A stretch of DNA of 64,000 bases from Aquabacterium commune (lineage in GTDB: Bacteria; Pseudomonadota; Gammaproteobacteria; Burkholderiales; Burkholderiaceae_C). Positions 12,937-33,038 of this stretch are shown piece by piece. The stretch lies in the NCBI RefSeq assembly GCF_004362855.1, contig NZ_SNXW01000002.1, positions 62,001 to 126,000 on the forward strand, written 5' to 3'. The translations under genes and the position numbers were made by a program. Below the pieces are notes generated by a model. That model ran no database searches. It worked only from the letters and a program-made list of their open reading frames with translations, and was not told where the DNA came from. How positions within the stretch are numbered: the first letter of the stretch is position 1; each line of letters begins with the position of its first letter.

Positions 12937-13260
12937 ATGCAAGATGAAGACATCGTCAAAGCCCTCGGGGCGCTCGCCCAAGCCCACCGACTGCGGGCCT
13001 TCCGCGCCCTGGTAGTCGCCGGTCAGGGCGGTTTGACGCCCGGCGTGCTGATGGAACGCCTCGACATCCCCGCCAACACCCTCTCCTTCCACCTCAAGGA
13101 GCTCACGCACGCCGGCCTGGTCACGCAGACCCGCGACGGGCGCCACCTGATCTACCGCGCGGCCTTCGAGCGCATGAACGCGCTGCTCGGTTTCCTCACG
13201 GCGAACTGCTGCGAGGGTGCGGACTGTGCCGTCCCGACCACCGCACCCTGCGATTGCTGA
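12937..13260 (+). CDS. arsR: Arsenite-responsive repressor ArsR
   Basis: This 107-residue ArsR/SmtB winged-helix protein represses the ars operon until As(III) binds. The recognition helix region is IPANTLSFHLKELTHAGLV (44-62). It lacks the classic ELCVCDL metal site; instead the C-terminus carries C91, C92 and C97 (NCCEGADC) plus C105 and C107. This is the arrangement of the Acidithiobacillus-type ArsR that binds arsenite through a C-terminal Cys triad. It is divergent from katG and first gene of the operon. Confidence 0.92.
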   Translation: MQDEDIVKALGALAQAHRLRAFRALVVAGQGGLTPGVLMERLDIPANTLSFHLKELTHAGLVTQTRDGRHLIYRAAFERMNALLGFLTANCCEGADCAVPTTAPCDC

Positions 13261-13309
13261 CCACACCCTCCCCGCCCCCGCCACGCCACCCACCGCCGAG
13301 GTCCACACC

Positions 13310-13807
13310 ATGTCCGACAAAACGCGCAACGTGCTCTTCATCTGCACGGGCAACTCTGCACGGTCCATCCTGGCCGAGGGCCTGATGAACCAACTCGGCG
13401 GCCCCAAGGGCTTCCGCGCCTTCTCGGCCGGCAGCCACCCCAAGGGCGCCGTGCATCCGCAGGCTCTGCAGACCCTGGCGACCCACCACATCCCCACGGA
13501 CGGGCTGCGCAGCAAAAGCTGGGAAGAGTTCGCCGCGCCCGATGCGCCTCGCATGGACTTCGTCTTCACCGTGTGCGACCAGGCCGCGGGCGAGGTCTGC
13601 CCCGTGTGGCCCGGCCAGCCGATGACCGCGCACTGGGGCCAGCCCGACCCGGCCGTCGCCACCGGCTCGCCCGAAACCCAGGCGCGCGCCTTCGTGGACG
13701 CCTTCGTGACCTTGCAGCGCCGCATCCAGCTGATGCTCGCCCTGCCCCTGGCCAGCCTGGAACGCCTGGCGCTTCAGCAACACATCCAAGACATCGGAAA
13801 GCAATGA
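13310..13807 (+). CDS. arsC: Arsenate reductase ArsC, first copy (phosphatase fold)
   Basis: The 165-residue LMW-phosphatase-fold enzyme reduces arsenate to arsenite. The P-loop is ICTGNSARS with nucleophile C12. C89 (TVCD) and C97 (EVCPVW) fit the redox relay cysteines of thioredoxin-coupled ArsC. Residues SKSWEEFAAPDAP are typical of the family. The start at 13310 follows arsR by 49 bases. A second, divergent arsC follows after four bases. Confidence 0.9.
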   Translation: MSDKTRNVLFICTGNSARSILAEGLMNQLGGPKGFRAFSAGSHPKGAVHPQALQTLATHHIPTDGLRSKSWEEFAAPDAPRMDFVFTVCDQAAGEVCPVWPGQPMTAHWGQPDPAVATGSPETQARAFVDAFVTLQRRIQLMLALPLASLERLALQQHIQDIGKQ

Positions 13808-13811
13808 CACC

Positions 13812-14300
13812 ATGACCACCAACGTCCTGATCCTGTGCACCCACAACTCGGCCCGCAGCGTGCTGAGCGAGGGCATGTTGAACCACCTCGCCCGCCAGTT
13901 GGGCAAGGACGTGCGCGCCTACAGCGCCGGCAGCGCGCCCAGCGGTCGCGTCAACCCCTTCGCCCTGGAGGCCCTCACGAACGCTGGGGTGGATGTGTCC
14001 GAGGTGCGCAGCAAGAGCTGGGACGAGTTCGTCGCCCCCGGTGCGCCGGAGATGCGCATCGTCATCACCGTGTGCGACAGCGCCGCCGCCGAGACCTGCC
14101 CCTACTGGCCAGGCAGCCCGGTGAAGGCGCACTGGGGCTACCCCGACCCGTCCAACGCCGAGCCCGACAAAAAGCCCCAGGCCTTCGAGCTGACCCGCCA
14201 GGCGATTGCCTACCGCATGCTGCAGCTGCTGTCCTTGCCGCTCGAATCCATGGGCAACGCCGAGCTGCAAGCCAAGCTCGAAGCCCTCTACAAGAGCTGA
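13812..14300 (+). CDS. arsC: Arsenate reductase ArsC, second copy
   Basis: This 162-residue paralogue of the preceding gene has nucleophile C9 in LCTHNSARS, where His replaces the usual Gly, and relay cysteines C88 and C96. The two copies share SKSWxEF and TVCD motifs but differ widely elsewhere, so they are not a recent tandem duplication. They may differ in reductant (thioredoxin or glutaredoxin) or one may prefer phosphotyrosine. Confidence 0.88.
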   Translation: MTTNVLILCTHNSARSVLSEGMLNHLARQLGKDVRAYSAGSAPSGRVNPFALEALTNAGVDVSEVRSKSWDEFVAPGAPEMRIVITVCDSAAAETCPYWPGSPVKAHWGYPDPSNAEPDKKPQAFELTRQAIAYRMLQLLSLPLESMGNAELQAKLEALYKS

Positions 14301-14309
14301 GGTCGGCAC

Positions 14310-14993
14310 ATGCCCTTGAACCTCTCTCGACGCCTGCTGGGCGAAGCCCTGGGCACGATGCTGCTGCTGGCCGTGGTGATCGGCTCCGGGATCATGGCGC
14401 AGCGCCTGTGCGGTGGCAACGATGGCCTGGCCCTGCTGGCCAACACCCTGGCCACGGTGGGCGGGCTGTACATCCTCATCGAGGTGTTCGGCCCGGTCAG
14501 TGGCGCGCACTTCAACCCTGCCGTCTCGGCCGTGATGGCCTGGCGCGGTGAGCTGGCCATGGGCGCCCTGCTGCCCTACATCGTGGCGCAACTGCTGGGC
14601 GCCATGCTGGGCGCCTTCCTGGCCCATGCGATGTTCGACCTGCCCATCCTGCAATGGTCGGCCAAGGTGCGCACGGGCAACGGCCAGTGGATCGCCGAGG
14701 CCGTGGCCACGGCCGGGTTGCTGCTGGTGATCTTGCGGGCGCCGGCCAGCCGGGTGGCGGCCATGGTGGCGGCCTACATCGGCGCGGCCTACTGGTTCAC
14801 CGCGTCCACCTCGTTCGCCAACCCGGCTGCGGCCTTTGGGCGCATGTTCAGCGACACCTTCGCCGGCATCGAACCCGCCAGCGCCCCGGGCTTCGTGGCG
14901 GCGCAATTGGTGGGCGCGGCCATCGGCGTGGGCTTGCATGCCGCGCTGGGTCAGCCCGCCACGGCGCCGATAAAGCCCCGAGCCACGCCCTGA
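14310..14993 (+). CDS. aqpS: Aquaglyceroporin-type channel of the ars operon
   Basis: The 227-residue six-helix MIP channel has both half-helix motifs: HFNPAVS (N69-A71) and FANPAAAFGR (N171-A173). The Arg that normally follows the second NPA in the selectivity filter is Ala here, which should widen the pore. Its place between arsC and arsH matches the Sinorhizobium meliloti aqpS arrangement, in which the channel lets arsenite made by ArsC leave the cell. No ArsB or Acr3 pump is present in this operon. Confidence 0.85.
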   Translation: MPLNLSRRLLGEALGTMLLLAVVIGSGIMAQRLCGGNDGLALLANTLATVGGLYILIEVFGPVSGAHFNPAVSAVMAWRGELAMGALLPYIVAQLLGAMLGAFLAHAMFDLPILQWSAKVRTGNGQWIAEAVATAGLLLVILRAPASRVAAMVAAYIGAAYWFTASTSFANPAAAFGRMFSDTFAGIEPASAPGFVAAQLVGAAIGVGLHAALGQPATAPIKPRATP

Positions 14994-15031
14994 GCCTCAC
15001 CCCGACGACACCTGATCTGCACTGACACGCC

Positions 15032-15760
15032 ATGCCCCTGCCCGATCTGCCCAACCTCGACGCCGCCCAGTTCGAGCGCCCCAGCGCCGAGCGCTTCGCC
15101 GAGCACCTCGCCGGTGTGGGCCGCAGCACCCACGCGCCGCGCATCCTGCTGCTTTACGGTTCGCTGCGCGAGCGCTCCTACAGCAAGCTGCTGACCCTGG
15201 AAGCCGAGCGCCTGCTGCAGGCCATGGGCGCCGAAACGCGCGTCTTCGATCCCACCGGCCTGCCCCTGCCCGATGGCGCCCCCGACACCCACCCCAAGGT
15301 GGCCGAGCTGCGCGAAGCCGCGGCCTGGTCGGAAGGCATGGTCTGGACCTCGCCCGAACGCCATGGCGCGATGACCGGCATCCTGAAAGCCCAGATCGAC
15401 TGGATCCCGCTGTCGGCCGGGGCCGTGCGCCCCACCCAGGGCAAGACGCTGGCGGTGATGGAGGTCTCGGGCGGCTCGCAGTCCTTCAACGCGGTCAACC
15501 AGATGCGCATCCTCGGGCGCTGGATGCGCATGCTCACCATCCCCAACCAGTCCTCGGTGGCCAAGGCCTTCCTGGAGTTCGACGAGGCCGGGCGCATGAA
15601 GCCTTCGGCCTATTACGAGCGCGTGGTCGATGTGATGGAAGAGCTGGTGAAGTTCACCCTGCTCACCCGCGACGTCTCGCCCTACCTGGTGGACCGCTAC
15701 AGCGAGCGCCGCGAAAGCGCCGAGGCGCTGTCGGCGCGGGTCAACCAGCGCAGCATCTGA
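15032..15760 (+). CDS. arsH: ArsH, NADPH-dependent FMN reductase of the ars operon
   Basis: The 242-residue flavodoxin-fold protein has the ArsH phosphate-binding loop [11 protein letters not shown] (near 42-52) and [19 protein letters not shown] (near 106-124), with the long N-terminal arm of the family. ArsH oxidises trivalent methyl or aryl arsenicals and reduces quinones or azo dyes; the physiological substrate varies. It is the last gene of the ars operon, 38 bases after aqpS. Confidence 0.93.
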
Positions 15761-16261: not shown

Positions 16262-17419
16262 GGAAGGTCTGCACAAATGAGCGCTGACCATGGTTGGGTG
16301 CACTGATATGACCAAACTGGCGACTGAACGTGCCTCTGGCTGGTGTTTTGGGCGCGTTTCGCGCCCATTTCCCATGCTTTGGACGCACTCATGCCAAGCT
16401 CCCGCTCAAACGTTTGCGAACCATCCACAGATTGGCCAACGCAAACAGCGTTTGCAACTGCGCCGTGTTCTTGGCCAGGCCGCGGTAGCGCACCTTCACA
16501 TGACCGAACTGGCGTTTGATGACACGGAATGGGTGCTCCACCTTGGCTCGGATGCTCGCCTTGATGCGCTCGACCTGGTCGGTCAGCGCATCCATGGGGT
16601 CTGCCCTGTCCAGCAGCTTGCGCAAGCCCGGGCGCATGGCCACATGCCACTGCACATCGTCTTTGGCGTCGGGCCGCTTACGCGCCCCTTGGTAGCCAGC
16701 GTCAGCAAACACATCCGTCTCTTGCCCGTGCAGCAAACTGTTGGCTTCGACCACATCGTTGACGTTGCCCGATGTGCCGCGCACGGTGTGCACCAGGCCG
16801 GAATCGGCGTCCACGCCGATGTGAGCTTTCATGCCGAAGAACCACTGCTGGCCCTTCTTGCTTTGGTGCATCTCCGGGTCTCGTTCACCGCTGGCATTCT
16901 TGGTCGAGCTCGGCGCCGAGATCAGCGTGGCATCGACCACCGTGCCGCTGCGCAGCATCAGGCCCTTGGCGCCCAGCAGCAGGTTGACCGTTGCCAGGAT
17001 CCGCTCGGCCAGCTTGTTCTTCTCCAGCACATGACGGAAGCGCAAGATGGTGCTCTCGTCGGGCAGCCGGTCATCCCAGCCGCCCAGGCCAGCGAAGTCG
17101 CGGAACAGCGGCACGTCGTGCAGCGCTTCTTCCATCGCCGGGTCGCTCAGCGTGAACCACTGCTGCATGAAGTGGATGCGCAGCAGCGACTCCACCGGGA
17201 ACGGCGGGCGGCCGCGTTTGCCTTCGGGCATGAATGGCGCGATCTCTGCCGCCAGGGCAGACCACGGCACCACCCGGTCCATCTCGTCGAGGAACTCCCG
17301 GCGGCGCGTGCGCTTCGTCGACGTTCCCAATCCAAGGCTGCTCTGCTTCATGGGCTCAATGGTCTCAGGCAATCAGGCCGGTGCCAAGCACGCGTTCGGG
17401 CGATTTATGCAGACCTTCC
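16262..17419. mobile_element. Complete IS5-family insertion sequence (1158 bp)
   Basis: Terminal inverted repeats GGAAGGTCTGCACAAAT (16262-16278) and its complement (17403-17419) match at 16 of 17 positions and resemble IS5 ends. Both flanks carry TTAG (16258-16261 and 17420-17423), which fits the YTAR target duplication of IS5. One intact transposase gene fills the element on the minus strand. Clean ends, an intact gene and an exact target duplication suggest a recent insertion. Confidence 0.93.
16389..17351 (-). CDS. IS5-family transposase
   Basis: The 320-residue DDE transposase has the N-terminal IS5 helix domain (MEEALHDVPLFRDFAG, ESTILRFRHVLE) and catalytic residues in TVVDATLI (first Asp), VFADAGYQG (second Asp) and KVEHPFRVIKRQFG (Glu). 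The ATG at 17351 (MKQSSLGLG) matches family starts; a TTG 21 bases upstream is also open. The frame is intact, so the element may be active. Confidence 0.93.
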   Translation of the reverse strand: MKQSSLGLGTSTKRTRRREFLDEMDRVVPWSALAAEIAPFMPEGKRGRPPFPVESLLRIHFMQQWFTLSDPAMEEALHDVPLFRDFAGLGGWDDRLPDESTILRFRHVLEKNKLAERILATVNLLLGAKGLMLRSGTVVDATLISAPSSTKNASGERDPEMHQSKKGQQWFFGMKAHIGVDADSGLVHTVRGTSGNVNDVVEANSLLHGQETDVFADAGYQGARKRPDAKDDVQWHVAMRPGLRKLLDRADPMDALTDQVERIKASIRAKVEHPFRVIKRQFGHVKVRYRGLAKNTAQLQTLFALANLWMVRKRLSGSLA

Positions 17420-17640: not shown

Positions 17641-17979
17641 TCAGCCCTTGGAAGGAAGACGGCCAGCGAGCGTGAGAGAGGCCCGAAGCATCTCGTTGAC
17701 ACGCGTTTGCCAGCCATCGCCAGAGGCGCGCAGTGCAGTCAAGACATCCGCATCAAGGCGCATCTTCACGGGCTCTTTGACGACAAGCGCAACACTGCCT
17801 GTTGGTCGGCCGCGGCGACGAGCGACGATTTCTGCAGGGGTGTGAACTTGCAGGGCGGCGCCGGACTTTGCTTCCGCCAACGACTCACGCAGGCCTGGCA
17901 GAGCTTGACCAGCATCGGCTTCAATGGCTGCTGCGATCTTGCTCACATCCATGGCCTTCAGTTTCTTCAGCGTGTTCAT
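17641..17979 (-). CDS. Antitoxin with BrnA-like C-terminus
   Basis: This 112-residue protein is encoded four bases after the toxin. The C-terminal segment VKMRLDADVLTALRASGDGWQTRVNEML (here abbreviated; residues about 71-98) is a ribbon-helix-helix like BrnA antitoxins, and the basic ARRRGRPTG stretch precedes it. The N-terminal part (ALPGLRESLAEAKSG) may bind the toxin. It probably neutralises the toxin and represses the operon. The antitoxin is the second gene, the reverse of the usual order. Confidence 0.75.
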   Translation of the reverse strand: MNTLKKLKAMDVSKIAAAIEADAGQALPGLRESLAEAKSGAALQVHTPAEIVARRRGRPTGSVALVVKEPVKMRLDADVLTALRASGDGWQTRVNEMLRASLTLAGRLPSKG

Positions 17980-17983
17980 GACG

Positions 17984-18277
17984 TCAACTCCGTTTGATGC
18001 TCTTTGGCTTCACGTTTTCACGTTCTGCCTTGACATAGACCATCACCAACAGCACGGCCTGATCGTCCACCAGATGGAAGTAGATCACCCGTGCCCCACC
18101 GCGCTTGCCCATTCCTGGGCGTGACCACCGGACCTTGCGTGCACCGTCTGCCCCAGGGATCACATCGCCTGCATCAGGCTCGCTGGCGATGAAGTCAATG
18201 AACGAGGTCCGCTCATCAGCATTCCAAACAGCCGAGGCTTGCTTGATGAACTCTGGCGTCTCAATCACTGTGCGCAT
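17984..18277 (-). CDS. RelE/HigB-like toxin
   Basis: The 97-residue basic protein starts MRTVIETPEFIKQASAVW and has GDVIPGADGARKVRWSRPG and GARVIYFHL, which fit the RelE-like HigB2 group of ribosome-dependent mRNA interferases. The toxin gene comes first, as in higBA. Its likely partner follows after four bases. A 29-base imperfect palindrome lies 27 bases upstream of the start. Activity is inferred from family likeness. Confidence 0.78.
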   Translation of the reverse strand: MRTVIETPEFIKQASAVWNADERTSFIDFIASEPDAGDVIPGADGARKVRWSRPGMGKRGGARVIYFHLVDDQAVLLVMVYVKAERENVKPKSIKRS

Positions 18278-18304
18278 GCATTAAATGTACACCCAATAAA
18301 ATAA

Positions 18305-18333
18305 GTTCCAAAGTCCTGCAAGAACTTTGCAAC
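18305..18333. promoter_or_regulatory. Palindromic operator candidate of the toxin-antitoxin operon
   Basis: Arms GTTCCAAAGTCCT (18305-18317) and AGAACTTTGCAAC (18321-18333) are inverted repeats matching at 11 of 13 positions around a GCA spacer. The following AT-rich stretch toward the toxin contains TTGGAA and TACATT separated by 16 bases as a possible -35/-10 pair. The location suits autoregulation by the antitoxin. Confidence 0.5.
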
Positions 18334-18451
18334 TTGTCGGTGTTTGCGGGCTGGTGTTGATGACGACCATGACGCCTTCATCCTTGCTTCGATCTTCCCG
18401 CAGTCGTCGAAGACCTGGGCATCGATGGCAGTCAGGAGATGCGGTCTGGCG

Positions 18452-18474
18452 AAAACACAAAACGATGGTGTTTT
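18452..18474 (-). terminator. AT-rich hairpin after the ParB-like gene
   Basis: AAAACAC (18452-18458) and GTGTTTT (18468-18474) form a seven-base stem. Read on the minus strand it lies 12-34 bases beyond the ParB-like stop and ends in GTGTTTTCG, so it could end the five-gene operon. Bases 18334-18451 contain no convincing gene. Confidence 0.45.
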
Positions 18475-18485
18475 GACATGCCCAG

Positions 18486-19286
18486 TCACTCGGCCTGCAG
18501 CCGCGCCACCTCGGCGCGCAGGGCCTGGTTCTCGGCCGTGAGCTCGGCCACGCGGCGCTGCAGGGCCTGGACCGTGGCGCCAACATTGCCCGCATTTGCT
18601 GCATCGGTGGCATCGGCATCCCAAGGCGCGTCGCTGTCCGCTGCGGCGCCATGGCCCTCGCCTGACACCGCCGCCACGGCCCGGCGCTTGTCTTCGCGCA
18701 CGCGCTTGGCCGCCTGCTTGAGCTCGTCCTTGCCGGCCAGCGCGGCCGAGGCCTGTTCTTCGGCGGGCAGGCTGGCCACGGCCGCCGCGGCGTTGATGCT
18801 GATGGTGCCGGCCTTGACCGCGGCCACCAGCTCGGGCGCGGCCTGCTTCTGGATTTTCTCGATCAGCACGACCTGGCTGTTGCTCAGGCGCGCAGCCTTG
18901 GCGATGTCAGCGCGGCTTTTCAGGGGCTCGGGGGTGGCGGTGGCAGGCTCGGCGCGGGCGCGGCGCTCGGACAGGATCTCGCGCTTGCGCAGCGCCAGCA
19001 CACCGCGCTGGAAGTCGGAGACGCTGCGGCGGCCCAGGTGCTGGTCGATCATCCACAGGTGGACGTCTTCCATGGACTTGAACTTCGGGTGCTGCACCGT
19101 CTGGAACGTCAGGCCGTGCTTCTGGCAGATGCCGTAGCGGTTGTGGCCGTCCACCAGCACATCGCCCCACAGCACCAGCGCGTCGCGGCAGCCTTCGGCC
19201 AGGATGCTGCGCTCCAGGGCTTCGTGCTCCTCGGGCGTCAGGGGGTCGATGTAGGCCTGAAGTTCTTCGTTGACGACGATGTGCAT
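18486..19286 (-). CDS. ParB/sulfiredoxin N-terminal domain protein
   Basis: The 266-residue protein has a ParB/Srx-like N-terminal domain (LQAYIDPLTPEEHEALERSI, VDGHNRYGICQKHG near 45-60), a helical middle with KSRADIAKAARLSNSQVV resembling the ParB helix-turn-helix, and a C-terminal coiled coil (VQALQRRVAELTAENQALRA). Family members bind DNA or act as nucleases or ATP/CTP-dependent switches. It follows the DUF2894 gene by 11 bases, suggesting one operon with the motor-like genes. ATG 19286 was chosen because upstream codons lie in the previous gene. Confidence 0.75.
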   Translation of the reverse strand: MHIVVNEELQAYIDPLTPEEHEALERSILAEGCRDALVLWGDVLVDGHNRYGICQKHGLTFQTVQHPKFKSMEDVHLWMIDQHLGRRSVSDFQRGVLALRKREILSERRARAEPATATPEPLKSRADIAKAARLSNSQVVLIEKIQKQAAPELVAAVKAGTISINAAAAVASLPAEEQASAALAGKDELKQAAKRVREDKRRAVAAVSGEGHGAAADSDAPWDADATDAANAGNVGATVQALQRRVAELTAENQALRAEVARLQAE

Positions 19287-19297
19287 GGTGGAGGTGT

Positions 19298-19921
19298 TCA
19301 CTTCTTGGTGCCGGTGCGGCGCGCCGGGCTGGCGGTCGGTTTTTGCGTGGCCTGCTCCAGCCACAAGAGAGCGTCGAGCTGGGCCAGCACGCCGTGCAGG
19401 TGCTCGGGCGAGAGCTCGCGCAGGGCCGCCAGGGAGCGCAGCACCAGCAGGTGCGAGTTCAAGGGGCCGGCGTTCTCGGGCGCCCGCGCCAGGGCCTTGT
19501 CCACCTGCGCGTCGGCCGCGACCTTGGCCCAGGTACCGCGGAAGCGGTCGAGGCTTTTGAGCTCGGGGCGCGCGGTGCCGCCATGGGCAGGCCGCACGGA
19601 CGCGGCGGCGTGGGTCGCTGGGGCCTGAGAAACCGCCTGGATGTGGCGGTGGAGTTCGGCCAGTGGCCCCGACGTGGCGGGGCTGGGGCTGGGGCTGGGG
19701 CTGGGGCTGGACGCTGGCGCAGCCGCGGCCTCGCTGGCACGCGCCTCTGACCGCGCCAGGGCCTCGCGCAAACGCCCGGCCAGGATGCGCTGCACGGCGC
19801 CAGGTTGCGCCTGCAGGCGCTGCGCCATCAGCACCATGTGCTGGAAGCCGATGGGGTCGCGCTGGGCCGCACCTGACGCTTGCAGGGACGCCAGGGCGGC
19901 GTTGAAGTCGCTGTCGCTCAT
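19298..19921 (-). CDS. DUF2894 family protein
   Basis: This 207-residue cytoplasmic protein has an N-terminal helical part (DPIGFQHMVLMAQRLQAQPG), a low-complexity linker of five Ser-Pro units encoded by a hexanucleotide tandem repeat, and a C-terminal domain with LKSLDRFRGTWAKVAADAQV and NAGPLNSHLLVLRSLAALRELSPE. It fits DUF2894, a family found beside DUF3348 and DUF802 genes in Burkholderiales. Its function is unknown. The gene follows the OmpA/MotB-like gene by 24 bases. Confidence 0.8.
   Translation of the reverse strand: MSDSDFNAALASLQASGAAQRDPIGFQHMVLMAQRLQAQPGAVQRILAGRLREALARSEARASEAAAAPASSPSPSPSPSPATSGPLAELHRHIQAVSQAPATHAAASVRPAHGGTARPELKSLDRFRGTWAKVAADAQVDKALARAPENAGPLNSHLLVLRSLAALRELSPEHLHGVLAQLDALLWLEQATQKPTASPARRTGTKK
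19681..19710. repeat. Hexanucleotide tandem repeat inside the DUF2894 gene
   Basis: Five perfect GGCTGG units encode the Ser-Pro linker. Changes in copy number would keep frame and alter only linker length, so it is not an on/off phase switch. Confidence 0.8.
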
Positions 19922-19945
19922 GCGGATGCGTTCATGCGGATGCGC

Positions 19946-20638
19946 TCAGGGCGCAGGCGGCGCCGCCTTGGGCACCGGCGCCATCTCGACGCGGCGGTTC
20001 AGGGCCCGGCCGGCTTCGCTGGTGTTGGGCGCGGCGGGTTGCTCGGCGCCGAAGGCTGCGGCGAACACGCGCGACGAGGGCATGCCTTCGCCGATGAGGG
20101 CGCGCGTCACGGTCAGGGCGCGCTGCGCCGAGAGCTCCAGGTTGTCGGCGTAGCGGTCGTTGCGGTTCTGCACGGGCTTGTCGTCGGTGAAGCCGCTGAC
20201 CATCAGCATCTCGTCGCGCTCGCCAAGATAGACGCGCAGCGGCGGCACCAGGGCCTGCAGCAGCTGGCGGCCCTCGGGGCGCAGCTGGTCGGAGTTGAAG
20301 GCGAACAGCACGCTGCCGCTGATGCCGATGCGGCCGTTGTTGAGCGTGACCCGGCCCGAGCGCAGCGGGATGGCGAGCGCCTTTTCCAGGGCCATGCGGC
20401 GCTGCTCTTCGACCTGGCGCTTCTGGACCTCGGCCTGCAGGTGGCTGACCAGGTCCATCTGCACGACCAGCACGCCCACCAGGATCAGCACGAAGGCGCC
20501 GAGCAGGCCGGCCATGAGGTCGCCGAAGACGGCCCAGACAGGCGCGGTGTCGGGCGCGGTGTCACTGCCCGACGGGCTCAGGGCCTCGTCGTGCTCACCG
20601 ACATCGGCGGCATCGTCCCAGCCATCCAGCACGCTCAT
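19946..20638 (-). CDS. MotB/OmpA-like peptidoglycan-binding stator partner
   Basis: The 230-residue protein has a cytoplasmic acidic N-terminus, one membrane helix (about 34-60, VWAVFGDLMAGLLGAFVLIL) with D40 near its start, a short coiled coil and an OmpA C-terminal domain (GFTDDKPVQNRNDRYADN near 150-167, LNRRVEM near 215). An Asp at the start of the helix is the proton-carrying residue in MotB, ExbD and ZorB. It overlaps the DUF802 gene by four bases. This pairing suggests a proton-driven motor anchored to the cell wall. Confidence 0.85.
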   Translation of the reverse strand: MSVLDGWDDAADVGEHDEALSPSGSDTAPDTAPVWAVFGDLMAGLLGAFVLILVGVLVVQMDLVSHLQAEVQKRQVEEQRRMALEKALAIPLRSGRVTLNNGRIGISGSVLFAFNSDQLRPEGRQLLQALVPPLRVYLGERDEMLMVSGFTDDKPVQNRNDRYADNLELSAQRALTVTRALIGEGMPSSRVFAAAFGAEQPAAPNTSEAGRALNRRVEMAPVPKAAPPAP

Positions 20639-22743
20639 GCCGCGCCCCCGGCCAGGGCCGGCCGCAGCTGGCGCAGGTCTTCGACGATGCCTTGCTGCGC
20701 GCTGATGCTCAGGTCGATGACCTCGCGCGCCTGGGCCACGTAGTAGGCCAGTTGCTCGTCGCTGCGCGCCATGGACTGCTGCAGGGTGGCTTCCAGGCGC
20801 TGCAGGCCGGCGGCGAGCTGGCCGTTGGTGTCGCTGAAGGCCTGCACGCCGTGGCGGAAGGCCTCACCCAGGGTGGAGAGCTCGATGGCGCTGCTGACCA
20901 CGTGGGCGGCCAGGTGCTCGGTCTTGCTGGCCTGCACACCGAGGGTGTCGGCGAACTGGCGGCTGGCCTGGTCCATCACGGACGCGGCCGAGGCGGCCAG
21001 GGCCTCGATGCTGGCGCGCTGCTCGCCCGCGGCCTGGTTGATGGTGTCCAGCAGGGTGCGGATCTGGTCCATGACGGCGGCGCGCTCCTGCAGCGAATGG
21101 GTGTCGCGCTCGCTGAGCTGGGCCATCTCGGTGCGCAGTTGCGCGATGACCTCGGACGCGGCCTGCGGCACCTCGGCGGCGGTCTGCATCAGGCGCGTCA
21201 TGGGCGCTTCCAGGGCCGTGCCCAGGGTGGCCAGGTGCTGGGTGACGGCGGCTTGCAGCTCGCCCAGGCGGGCCACGGCGGCATCGCCCCGCTGGACCTC
21301 ATCGGCACGCAAGGCGGCCAGCTCGGTGCGCCACAGGCTGGCGAGCTGGTCCATGCGTTCGCCGTGCTGGGCGGCCCAGTGCGATTCGGCCTCGGTGCGG
21401 GCCTGGAGCAGGGCCTGCGACTGGCTCACCAGCTGGGCGATGTCGTCCAGCGTCTGGCGGGCCTGCTGGCGGGTGCGCTCGGCGATGTCCTGGGCGCTGG
21501 CCTGCAGGGTCTGGCAGATGGCATCTTGCTGCTGCAAGGTCTGTGCGCCCACGCGCTGCCACTCGGCACCGAGCTGGGCGGCCTGCGTGGCCAGGGCCTG
21601 CGTCCAGGCGCCGAGCTTGCGTTCGTCGGCCTCGGCCTGGGCGGCCTGGGCCTGCGCGGCCGATTGCTGCAGCGTCGCCAGCGCGCTGCGGGCGGTGTCG
21701 CCGATGCGCGCCGAAAGGCCGTCGAGCTGGGCCTGGGTGGCGTCCACCAGGCGCTGGTGTGTCCGGGCAGATTCCGCCGCGATCTCGGCCATGGCCGCTT
21801 GCACCACGGGCTGGAGGCTGTCGCCAGCCACCTGCGCGCTGGCCGCCAGGCTGTCTTGCAGCGAGCGCCCCACGGACTGCGCCAGCTGGGCGTAGGCCGC
21901 CGAGGCTTCGCGGTGGAAATCGGTTTGCTGGGCCAGCATCTGCGCGCCCAGTTGCTGGTGGCGGCGCTCCACGCCTTCGGCCAGGGTGTGCAGGGCTTGC
22001 ACCATCGCGGGCAGGGCCTCGGCCTGGGCCTGCAAGGCCAGCAGCGCACCTTGGGTGTCGGCGCGCTGCGCGTCGGCTTGCTGCTCGCGCTGGGCGGCGC
22101 GCTGGTGGCGCGCAGAGAGCGGCCGCAGCACCGTGGCGATGCGGGTGTCGAGCAGGCGGACCAGCGCCAGGCGCTCGCGGCGGCTGAGCGCCGACATCAG
22201 GCCCAGCATGGCCGAGGCCGCGACACCGGCCACCGAAGTACCGAAGGACAAGCCCAAGCCCTTGATGGGCGCGGCCAGGGCCGCTCGGATGGCCTGCAGG
22301 TCGGTCGAGCCTTCGAGCGCGAACACGGCGCCCTGGAAGGTCACCACCATGCCCAGGAAGGTGCCCAGCATGCCGAGCATGACCAGCAAGCCGACCAGGT
22401 AGGGCGTGAGCGCCGGCGCCGGCAAGGCCACGCGCTCGCCTTCGATGCGCTGGCGCACGGGGTGGCGCAGGGCCGCGGGAAGGCGGGCCAGCCAGTCGCC
22501 GAGCGCGGTGGTGTCTGTGGGTGTGTTGTCTGGGGTGCTGTCTGGCGTGTGGGTCAGGGCCGCGGCCAGGGCGTCCGAGGCGGCGCGGAACTGCCAGAGC
22601 TCGGCGGCGCCCAGCACGTAGGTGGCCGCGATGGCGCAGGTCATGGCCAGGGCCAGCCAGCTGGCGCCGATGAAGCCCACGCCCACCCAGCCCACGGCCA
22701 CCAGGCCGATGGCGAAGGCCACTGCAAAAACGATCCTGTTCAT
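20635..22743 (-). CDS. DUF802 protein: ExbB/MotA-like channel with long helical tail
   Basis: The 702-residue protein has four membrane helices (about 5-25, 27-48, 112-138, 160-186) and a roughly 500-residue Ala/Gln/Glu-rich, proline-poor tail that should form a long coiled coil. The helix pair VMLGMLGTFLGMVVTFQ and PIKGLGLSFGTSVAGVAASA lines up with the window's own ExbB (FVGLFGTVWGVYHA and PVGEALIMTGVGLAVAIPAV). This matches ZorA layout. ATG 22743 overlaps the DUF3348 stop by four bases; the frame is open far upstream but that part is antisense noise. Confidence 0.85.
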   Translation of the reverse strand: MNRIVFAVAFAIGLVAVGWVGVGFIGASWLALAMTCAIAATYVLGAAELWQFRAASDALAAALTHTPDSTPDNTPTDTTALGDWLARLPAALRHPVRQRIEGERVALPAPALTPYLVGLLVMLGMLGTFLGMVVTFQGAVFALEGSTDLQAIRAALAAPIKGLGLSFGTSVAGVAASAMLGLMSALSRRERLALVRLLDTRIATVLRPLSARHQRAAQREQQADAQRADTQGALLALQAQAEALPAMVQALHTLAEGVERRHQQLGAQMLAQQTDFHREASAAYAQLAQSVGRSLQDSLAASAQVAGDSLQPVVQAAMAEIAAESARTHQRLVDATQAQLDGLSARIGDTARSALATLQQSAAQAQAAQAEADERKLGAWTQALATQAAQLGAEWQRVGAQTLQQQDAICQTLQASAQDIAERTRQQARQTLDDIAQLVSQSQALLQARTEAESHWAAQHGERMDQLASLWRTELAALRADEVQRGDAAVARLGELQAAVTQHLATLGTALEAPMTRLMQTAAEVPQAASEVIAQLRTEMAQLSERDTHSLQERAAVMDQIRTLLDTINQAAGEQRASIEALAASAASVMDQASRQFADTLGVQASKTEHLAAHVVSSAIELSTLGEAFRHGVQAFSDTNGQLAAGLQRLEATLQQSMARSDEQLAYYVAQAREVIDLSISAQQGIVEDLRQLRPALAGGAA

Positions 22744-23486
22744 GGGTGCTTCTCGACCTCGCTGCGCAACGCGTGCATCAATCCAATGACCGGCTGCAGG
22801 CGGAGGTCCAGCTCCGCGTGCAGCATCTCTTGCATCTCTCCAACATAGGCGCCGTGCCAGCCCTCGAGCAGCTCGCGCTTCAACTGCTCGAAGCGTTTTT
22901 CCAGCAGCAGGGGCACGGCGGCCATCAGCTTGTGCTCGCGCCCGCCCAGGGTCTGCTCCAGGGCGGCGTCCAGCGCGGCCAGCTGGCGCAGGCGGGGCGA
23001 GGCCTGGGACAGGGCCTGGCGCACCGAGGCGCGCAGGGCAGCGACTTTCTGCGCCATCTGGCCCTGCTGGTCGAGGTGGCGCTTGCGGTGCGGCGCGTGG
23101 CCTGCATCGGCCTCGTGCGGGGCGTCGCGCAGCGCCTGGGCGGCCTGCGTGGCGATGCCCTGGGTCAGCGCGGCGCGCACCTGGGCCAGTTCGGCGTCGG
23201 TGCGCGCGCACAAGGCCTTCGCGCCCGCTGACACCGCCCTGGGGATGGCGCTGACGGGCCCTGGCGGCAGGGCCGCGTGGAGGCGCACGGTGTCGACCGC
23301 GCTCAGCCACTGGGCCAGGCGCTCGGCGAAGTCCTGCCGAGGGGCGTCCTGCCTGGGACCGCCCTGGTCGCGTGCCGTGGCCGCGCTCAGCAGGCGCACC
23401 AGCCGCGAACTGGCGAGGTTCGCGCGCATGGCCGGCGTGGCCATCTTGGGCGCAGCGGCGGGTGAGCGGGGGGCGGGAGCTGGCAC
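22740..23486 (-). CDS. DUF3348 family protein
   Basis: This 248-residue soluble helical protein contains [15 protein letters not shown] near 27-41 and ends with [27 protein letters not shown]. It fits DUF3348, a family that sits next to DUF802 genes. It is the first gene of the motor-like operon and overlaps DUF802 by four bases. The start is uncertain: GTG 23486 gives a Pro-Ala-rich leader, while ATG 23444 starts closer to the conserved part; neither has a clear ribosome site. Its function is unknown. Confidence 0.75.
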
Positions 23487-23614
23487 GGGCAGGGAGACAG
23501 GCGGGGAGACAGGCAGGGAGGGAGGCGCTGAGGGAACGTCGGGGAGGCGGAAGTCTAAACGGTGAGCGACAATGCACCCCTTTTTGGCACGGGGCCCGTC
23601 CGCCCCTCAAAAGC

Positions 23615-25869
<2,255 letters not shown>

Positions 25870-31431: not shown

Positions 31432-32253
31432 TCAGTGCTTGCCGGCGGCGCCTGCCGACGACAGGTTGCGCACATTGGCGCCCTCCGGCGGCGCGGGTGC
31501 CTTCAGCGTCTGCCCGGTGGACAGGAAGGTGAACAGCTCGAAAGCGAAGGTGTCCAGGCGCGAACCCCAGACGCGGTTGCTGCGCGTCAGCCAGTTGTAG
31601 GCCACCACGGCCGGGATGGCCACGGCCAGGCCCACGCCCGTCATGATCAGCGCCTCGCCCACCGGGCCGGCCACCTTGTCCAGCGAGGCCGAACCCGACA
31701 TGCCGATGGCGGCAAGCGCGTGATAGACGCCCCAGACCGTGCCGAACAGGCCGACGAAAGGCGCGGTCGCACCGACCGTGGCCAGTGCCGTCAGGCCGCT
31801 TTCCATGCGCAGGGTTTCTTCGTCGAGCACCTTCTTGATGGTGCGGGTGAGGAACTCCTGGGCCGTGCCGGCCTCTTCCAGCTTGGCCGCGCCGTAGCGG
31901 GCGTGGTGGGCCTGGGCCTGCATGGCGTGGGCCGTCAGGTGGCCGAAAGGCTCTTGCGCGCCGTGGGTGTTGAGCTCGTGCTGCACCGACTCCAGCGAGG
32001 TCGCGTTCCAGAACAGGTTGAGGAAGGCCTGGCTGCGCTTCTCACGCAGGATGAGGCCGATGCCCTTGGTGACGATCAGTGCCCAGGACAACAGCGACAT
32101 CAGCAACAGGATGACGAACAGCCCCTGGCCGATGCCATCGGACTGGGCGATGAAGTGCGAGAACCCCGGCTGCGGCGCAGTTGCCTGTGCGACAGATGCC
32201 GCAGCCTCGGGCAAAGAGGCGGTTGCGGTCACGGTGGAAGCAAGGTCGGACAT
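31432..32253 (-). CDS. exbB: Proton channel protein ExbB
   Basis: The 273-residue protein has an N-terminal periplasmic segment and three membrane helices: about 44-66, 160-185 and 200-225. The conserved pair FVGLFGTVWGVYHAL and GEALIMTGVGLAVAIPAVVAYN forms the proton path with ExbD. ATG 32253 lies two bases after the tonB stop (TGACCATG), implying coupling. It energises TonB-dependent uptake of iron chelates. Confidence 0.95.
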   Translation of the reverse strand: MSDLASTVTATASLPEAAASVAQATAPQPGFSHFIAQSDGIGQGLFVILLLMSLLSWALIVTKGIGLILREKRSQAFLNLFWNATSLESVQHELNTHGAQEPFGHLTAHAMQAQAHHARYGAAKLEEAGTAQEFLTRTIKKVLDEETLRMESGLTALATVGATAPFVGLFGTVWGVYHALAAIGMSGSASLDKVAGPVGEALIMTGVGLAVAIPAVVAYNWLTRSNRVWGSRLDTFAFELFTFLSTGQTLKAPAPPEGANVRNLSSAGAAGKH

Positions 32254-32255
32254 GG

Positions 32256-33038
32256 TCAAAACTCGTCAAGCTGGAAATTGAGGGGGGCCAGCACCGACAC
32301 CGAGCGGGGCTGACCATCTTCGATGTGAGGCTGGAAACGCGCGGCACGCATGGCCACCAAGGCGGCCTGGTCCAGGCGCGGATGGCCCGACGACTTGGCC
32401 ACCTCGACTTCGCGAGGGCGGCCCTGCTCGTCCACCAACACACGCAGGCGCACCACACCGGACTCACCCAACTCGCGCGAGGCCCGCGGGTAGCTGAGCA
32501 CCGGGGGCACCAGGTAGCGCACCGCCGATGAGGGCAACATTTTCGGCGCGGCAGGCGCTGGCGGTGCGGCCGGCGCCGGCGTGGGCGCCACGACAGCAGG
32601 CGCGGGCGCCGCCACGGCCGCGGGGGCCTCGGTGGGCGCAGCCGGGGTGGGCGAAGCGGCAGCCACCGCGGCGGCCGTCTGTGTGGGCGTGGCCAGCACC
32701 GAGGGCGCTTGGGCAGCGACACTGCGCGCAGCGGGTGCGGGCGGCGCAGCTTGCGCCAGCGGTGGGGTGTCGGTGGCTGGCGCAGGCGGTGCGGGGGGCG
32801 CGGGCGGCACCGGGGCCTCGTTGTCGAGCATCACCACGGCGATGGTGGGCGATGCCAGCTCGGGCACAGGCTCGGCGGTCGCACGCCACAACCAGGTCGC
32901 GGCCCCGGCGTGCGCGGCCAGCACCAGCCCGCACACCCAGCCCATCTGGGCGGTGCTGAGGTCCGAGTGCGGGCCCAGCCCACCGGCCCGCATGTGGGCC
33001 TGGGGCCCGGCAGCAACAAGACGCGAAGAAGCAGTCAT
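32256..33038 (-). CDS. tonB: Energy transducer TonB
   Basis: The 260-residue protein has one N-terminal membrane helix (MGWVCGLVLAAHAGAATWLW, about 32-51), a long Pro/Ala-rich periplasm-spanning linker (about 75-165) and a C-terminal TonB fold (YPRASRELGESGVVRLRVLV, ALVAMRAARFQPH). It transmits proton-motive force from ExbBD to outer-membrane receptors. A Fur box overlaps its promoter. No receptor gene lies in the window. Confidence 0.94.
   Translation of the reverse strand: MTASSRLVAAGPQAHMRAGGLGPHSDLSTAQMGWVCGLVLAAHAGAATWLWRATAEPVPELASPTIAVVMLDNEAPVPPAPPAPPAPATDTPPLAQAAPPAPAARSVAAQAPSVLATPTQTAAAVAAASPTPAAPTEAPAAVAAPAPAVVAPTPAPAAPPAPAAPKMLPSSAVRYLVPPVLSYPRASRELGESGVVRLRVLVDEQGRPREVEVAKSSGHPRLDQAALVAMRAARFQPHIEDGQPRSVSVLAPLNFQLDEF

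Follow-up and report, generated by a model that had tools for sequence, protein, structure and literature searches.

MotAB, ExbBD and TolQR are ion-driven channels with an aspartate in the helix of the B subunit, and MotB also contains an OmpA domain. Zorya anti-phage systems encode a motor of this kind, ZorAB, which published work on types I and II describes as a 5:2 complex that binds peptidoglycan and needs the ZorA tail and ion flow. According to PMC11890865, type II uses the nickase ZorE, and DNA is the reported target of the type I protein ZorD. The definition of type III goes back to Payne et al. (2021), who found 6,401 gene pairs accompanied by two DUF genes and proposed that the two DUF proteins regulate ZorAB (PMC8565338). 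In the same study, a Stenotrophomonas type III system consisting of ZorA, B, F and G reduced the plaquing of at least one phage in E. coli. In their available text, PMC12584637 and PMC11953036 mention predicted Zorya III systems only; the former reports altered expression of the first one to two genes of Zorya I and III operons on infection, and the systems that its authors call active do not include Zorya III in that text. Here we analyse a run of five genes in a 64,000-nucleotide stretch of contig NZ_SNXW01000002.1 (the window), which an earlier note had read as a ZorAB-like motor accompanied by DUF3348, DUF2894 and ParB/Srx proteins. Naming follows PADLOC-DB 2.0.0, in which DUF3348 is ZorG and DUF2894 is ZorF; the two names are swapped in PMC8565338 and PMC11890865, where DUF3348 appears as ZorF and DUF2894 as ZorG.

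Identification of a Zorya type III operon

Judging from sequence, window positions 19298-23486 very probably (probability about 0.92) represent a complete Zorya type III anti-phage operon of an Aquabacterium-type Burkholderiales bacterium, predicted to encode a motor of five ZorA and two ZorB subunits. Each of the four type III components was matched by its PADLOC model: ZorA3 (PDLC00648; E 5.5e-237, profile positions 1-684 of 692), ZorB3 in the OmpA protein (PDLC00651; E 2.6e-105), ZorG3 in the DUF3348 protein (PDLC00658; E 1.5e-60) and ZorF3 in the DUF2894 protein (PDLC00652; E 1e-55). Because of these four matches, the description as 'ZorAB-like' was right and, if anything, understated. Pfam likewise bore out the DUF3348 (PF11828; E 5.5e-49), DUF2894 (PF11445; E 4.5e-48) and MotB/OmpA (OmpA; E 3.3e-17) labels. 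The DUF802 label given to the ZorA-like protein found no support in Pfam, its 702 residues giving no match to DUF802 (PF05650) at E values up to 1; a genome search for this family was uninformative, as it gave no hit in any control genome.

No ZorC or ZorD was found among the five genes with PADLOC, the genes other than zorA and zorB matching the ZorF3 and ZorG3 models only and the fifth matching none. Furthermore, neither ZorE nor an HNH domain was matched in the five proteins by Pfam or PADLOC, and a weak match to the PADLOC ZorB2 model (33.6 bits) was obtained. Apart from its fifth gene, the cluster is a full copy of an already known defence system, in which there is little new.

The positions and order of the five genes given in the earlier note held when coordinates and junctions were rechecked. 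The genes run in one direction, from 23486 to 18486, with two overlapping junctions followed by two short gaps (Table 1). A simple scan of positions 18000-24000 found no sigma-70-like promoter and a single terminator-like site on the minus strand, beyond the fifth gene.

Table 1. Features of the operon and its surroundings; coordinates are window positions, and all five genes of the cluster lie on the minus strand.
Feature	Product length	Position	Strand	Remarks
ZorG3 (PADLOC), DUF3348 gene	248 aa	22740-23486	minus	GTG start; first gene
ZorA3 gene	702 aa	20635-22743	minus	ATG start; 4-base overlap with DUF3348 gene
ZorB3 (OmpA protein) gene	230 aa	19946-20638	minus	4-base overlap with zorA
ZorF3 (PADLOC), DUF2894 gene	207 aa	19298-19921	minus	24 bases after zorB
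ParB/Srx-like gene	266 aa from ATG	18486-19286	minus	11 bases after DUF2894 gene
Terminator-like site		18329-18309	minus	beyond fifth gene
BrnA-type antitoxin gene and RelE-like toxin gene		17641-18277	minus	toxin match weak, below cut-off; toxin gene just upstream of antitoxin gene
DDE transposase gene		16389-17372		beside the BrnA-type antitoxin pair
Arsenic-type genes		13200-15760		arsC-like and ArsH-like, by reading of sequences
ExbB-like open reading frame		31435-32265	minus	

Conserved features of the ZorAB motor

ZorA consists of a MotA/ExbB-like channel part followed by a tail of some 490 residues at its C-terminus. The motifs GMLGTFLG and GLFGTVWG, which had been aligned by eye between this protein and ExbB of the same window, are both present, and the ExbB-like reading frame was located (Table 1). 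Against solved structures, ZorA matched the type I ZorA chain 8vvn_C over residues 115-595 (E 2.1e-4) with the channel motifs in register, a weak match (23.6 bits) that takes in biased tail sequence.

ZorB combines a transmembrane helix bearing D40 with an OmpA-type peptidoglycan-binding domain, and matches the solved chains 8qyd_F (residues 32-191) and 8vvn_B (residues 22-84 on 6-69). Provided that no gap precedes it in the latter alignment, D40 aligns with D24 of the type I protein; D24N is one of the ZorB variants in published plaquing assays. Translation confirmed the earlier reading of residue 40 as aspartate. Across the larger set of 111 loci with ZorB, this residue is D in all 107 sequences that have the column (four are gapped), and the OmpA-domain residues D165, R173, N214 and R216 are each present in 111/111. 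In ZorA, T128 (106/107) and S170 (106/106) are similarly conserved and T169 is variable (T 91, A 9, C 3, S 3, one gap). ZorA length ranges from 541 to 1056 residues with a median of 730.5 among the 110 copies longer than 500 residues. In two loci (L020 and L062) the ZorA matches are split over two reading frames, which may reflect broken copies or sequencing errors.

Distribution, gene order and genomic position

OmpA proteins of the MotB and Pal types are matched by ZorB as well, which would suit a housekeeping motor of the envelope or of division, similar to Tol, Exb or MotAB, that had been labelled Zorya III by sequence alone. The distribution of the operon was surveyed in 299 genomes of the family and 42 genomes of the genus. 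A strong ZorB3 match (at least 298.8 bits) was present in 92/299 family genomes, the next score being 102.5 bits, and weaker OmpA-type matches occurred in all 299. By our count, 17 genera of the family survey hold both carriers and non-carriers. Within the genus, ZorA was found in 22/42 genomes and is lacking in the other 20, compared with 40/42 for QueA. Presence is thus patchy at both levels, as is typical of defence systems. PF13707 (RloB) was found in 4/42 genus genomes and was not used as a yardstick of patchiness.

The stretches around the other 91 strong ZorB3 matches, together with the window, provided 92 loci. DUF3348 and DUF2894 were each identified in 91 of these, the exceptions (L074 and L043) being cut by a contig end. 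In the larger set, all four genes are present in 107/111 loci, and the remaining four (L043, L074, L107 and L117) are cut by contig ends. Since the order zorG-zorA-zorB-zorF on one strand is kept in 107/107 loci holding all four genes, the arrangement is not due to chance. The 4-base overlap between the DUF3348 gene and zorA recurs in 76/107 loci, with start codons chosen by script. A FastTree phylogeny of the ZorA N-terminus and ZorB from the 107 loci recovered 18 of 25 multi-locus genera as monophyletic; the other seven, including the window's genus, were not. This pattern is consistent with descent chiefly inside genera plus some transfer.

Neither flank of the operon is shared in 232/285 same-genus pairs and 5,779/5,820 between-genus pairs. 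The window's genus accounts for 192 of the 232 unshared same-genus pairs (192/210 of its own pairs); of the 75 pairs from the 24 remaining multi-locus genera, 40 share no flank and 35 share one or both. The operon therefore occupies many positions across the family, yet its location is often conserved among members of one genus. A queA gene adjoining the operon is common to four loci, none of them outside the window's genus, and queA keeps its tgt neighbour in all eight loci in which it is uncut. In four Zorya-free stretches (L131-L134), queA is accompanied by an h84 homologue 1.1-2.2 kb away on the opposite strand, unlike in the window; this strand difference fits insertion plus rearrangement and does not prove a clean empty site.

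Several observations weigh against the reading as an anti-phage operon, as does the low score of the ZorA alignment with 8vvn_C. In fourteen genera sampled at least twice, every genome is a carrier (our count), and retention so close to fixation seems uncommon among defence systems; this and the 35/75 same-genus pairs sharing a flank outside the window's genus also favour a housekeeping motor. Moreover, DUF3348 was found on only 27 of 72,556 plasmid records, all of at least 366 kb and 20 of them predicted to be non-mobilizable, and in none of 50,697 phage records. The best plasmid match for DUF3348 is Aquabacterium olei NZ_CP029211.1 (366,221). The carrier-only genera include g54, g62, g64, g76 and g109, and every pair of loci shares at least one flank in g78, g62 and g29. 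A housekeeping motor is nevertheless disfavoured because of the patchy presence of the operon, the flank sharing outside the window's genus being mixed evidence. The nearly full-length PADLOC type III matches and the reduced plaquing caused by a type III relative (PMC8565338) also speak for a Zorya system, and we regard the housekeeping explanation as very improbable.

The ParB/Srx-like gene

The earlier note had counted DUF3348, DUF2894 and the ParB/Srx-like protein as candidate effectors or regulators. The first two belong to the system; the third, on distribution and synteny, does not appear to. Its label was partly borne out: the protein matches the PHROGs family 'ParB-like partition protein' (E 3.1e-14) and has a leucine-zipper-like stretch at its C-terminus, and no Pfam ParB or Srx model, PADLOC model or solved structure (profile search) was matched.

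A five-component type III variant, in which this protein would serve as a DNA-binding effector or regulator, would accord with the mere 11 bases that separate its gene from the DUF2894 gene, an interval in which the scan of the minus strand turned up no terminator-like site. The gene also adjoins Zorya in two arrangements, directly downstream in the window and in L098, and divergently upstream of DUF3348 in L100. Against this, the protein is widespread in the genus irrespective of ZorA. It was found in 39/42 genomes, or 38 when one match too weak to count (G325; 42 bits) is set aside, and is strong in 20/22 ZorA carriers and likewise in 18/20 non-carriers. Its gene lies within 10 kb of Zorya in five of the 22 carriers, a count that fragmented assemblies could have lowered. 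Other genes intervene in two loci: an alcohol-dehydrogenase-like gene in L099, and the same type of gene together with a pilin-like cluster in L050 (names by reading of the sequences). Fifteen of the 33 strong copies away from Zorya were examined and none had a Zorya gene nearby, their flanks representing several contexts. Furthermore, the gene is present in only 2/92 family-wide Zorya loci, and PMC8565338 gives ZorA, B, F and G as the components of its active system. On this distribution and synteny we reject the gene as a fifth component and judge it to be a separate chromosomal gene that is a neighbour of the Zorya system. As it abuts Zorya in two arrangements, a very small probability of membership is retained.

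Accessory proteins and proposed mechanism

AlphaFold models of the accessory proteins were built from alignments of 81 of 110 extracted DUF3348 and 91 of 109 extracted DUF2894 sequences, the others having been removed by a length filter (leaving 97 and 100, respectively) or as redundant. The DUF3348 (ZorG) model is confident, all-helical and free of strands, with a predicted local distance difference test score (pLDDT) of 88.2 and a predicted template modelling score (pTM) of 0.80. The DUF2894 (ZorF) model is also all-helical and without strands, the arrangement of its helices being uncertain (pLDDT 80.0, pTM 0.44). Neither predicted model shows a nuclease-like fold.

Searches for fold relatives of ZorG gave a best Foldseek E of 0.21, and the best VIA result, against the MxB stalk (Z 9.8, root-mean-square deviation (rmsd) 5.0 over 161 residues), is no clear match under the tool's guide for helical bundles. 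For ZorF the best Foldseek E was 3.2 and the best Z 7.0 (rmsd 3.4 over 69 residues), with the C-terminal part barely covered. Profile searches of solved structures yielded nothing convincing for ZorG (best E 0.57) or for ZorF, whose best hit was a chain of the type III export protein PscE (E 0.028). The most conserved polar positions are Q141, R156, D173 and R229 in DUF3348 and N155 and R35 in DUF2894, among which we recognised no nuclease motif. Searches of the open-licence PubMed Central literature found ZorF and ZorG named only in Payne 2021 and Mariano 2025, and the available text of both assigns them no measured activity of their own.

A recurrent missing partner beside the operon was sought among mechanically called reading frames of at least 100 residues within 7 kb, a survey that short genes could escape. 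No neighbour family occurred in more than 10 of the 111 loci, and the commonest resemble, by our reading, general metabolic, transport or signalling genes.

By analogy, we infer that this copy works, and does so in the same way as the studied Zorya systems. Five ZorA and two ZorB subunits would form an ion-driven rotary motor in the inner membrane. Phage entry would disturb the envelope, upon which the OmpA domain of ZorB would grip peptidoglycan. Ions would then pass at ZorB D40 against the Thr/Ser ring of ZorA, so that ZorA with its long cytoplasmic tail would turn relative to the anchored ZorB, and the tail would engage the DUF3348 and DUF2894 proteins. These two proteins would be tail-bound adaptors or regulators without nuclease activity of their own. 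We tentatively suggest, at rather less than even odds, that type III lacks a nuclease of its own, its accessory proteins docking on the ZorA tail and its output being either a gated ion leak or a captured host DNA enzyme.

A narrower form of the type III assignment, in which the two helical proteins would gate a leak of ions through ZorAB as the output (abortive depolarisation) with no recruitment to DNA, draws on the predicted all-helical folds without a convincing structural relative, on the absence of any neighbour family from more than 10 of the 111 loci, and on the regulation of ZorAB proposed by Payne 2021 (PMC8565338). However, types I and II are reported to act through DNA-acting proteins, a common scheme has been proposed for all subtypes (PMC11890865), and a host nuclease could be recruited instead. 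We consider an output by ion leak alone somewhat unlikely.

Neighbouring genes

Just downstream of the ParB/Srx-like gene lies the BrnA-type antitoxin pair, next to the transposase gene (Table 1). Arsenic-type genes, which the window also contains, are found about 5 kb or less from Zorya III, on differing sides, in four further loci of the same genus (L100, L104, L108 and L111), and a hotspot shared by the two is possible.

Comparison with known systems

The window operon agrees with Zorya type III (PMC8565338) in its four components, as identified by profile, and in the two DUF genes that flank the ZorA/ZorB pair. No defining difference was found, although the window has a ParB/Srx-like gene downstream. 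The analysis traces the initial lead to a defence system already known, strikes off a false fifth component and finds an unvarying set of type III genes across the loci sampled in this family.

With the type I system ZorABCD (8vvn, 8qyd), the operon shares aligned ZorA channel motifs, the ZorB helix and OmpA domain, and a tailed ZorA, but it contains no ZorC or ZorD match and has DUF3348 and DUF2894 in their place. The type II system ZorABE has the ZorAB motor in common with it, along with the weak ZorB2 match, whereas no ZorE or HNH match is found among the five genes of the window. MotAB, ExbBD and TolQR resemble the window's motor in their ion-driven channel, in the B-subunit aspartate and, in the case of MotB, in the OmpA domain; Zorya differs in its long ZorA tail, dedicated accessory genes and patchy distribution.

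The all-helical models of the type III accessory proteins differ from the nickase ZorE of type II and the DNA-targeting ZorD of type I, and the role of DUF3348 and DUF2894 is the question to which this analysis points. Should both ZorF and ZorG prove not to be nucleases, the proposed recruitment of a nuclease-like complex by every Zorya subtype (PMC11890865) would need to be revised for type III.

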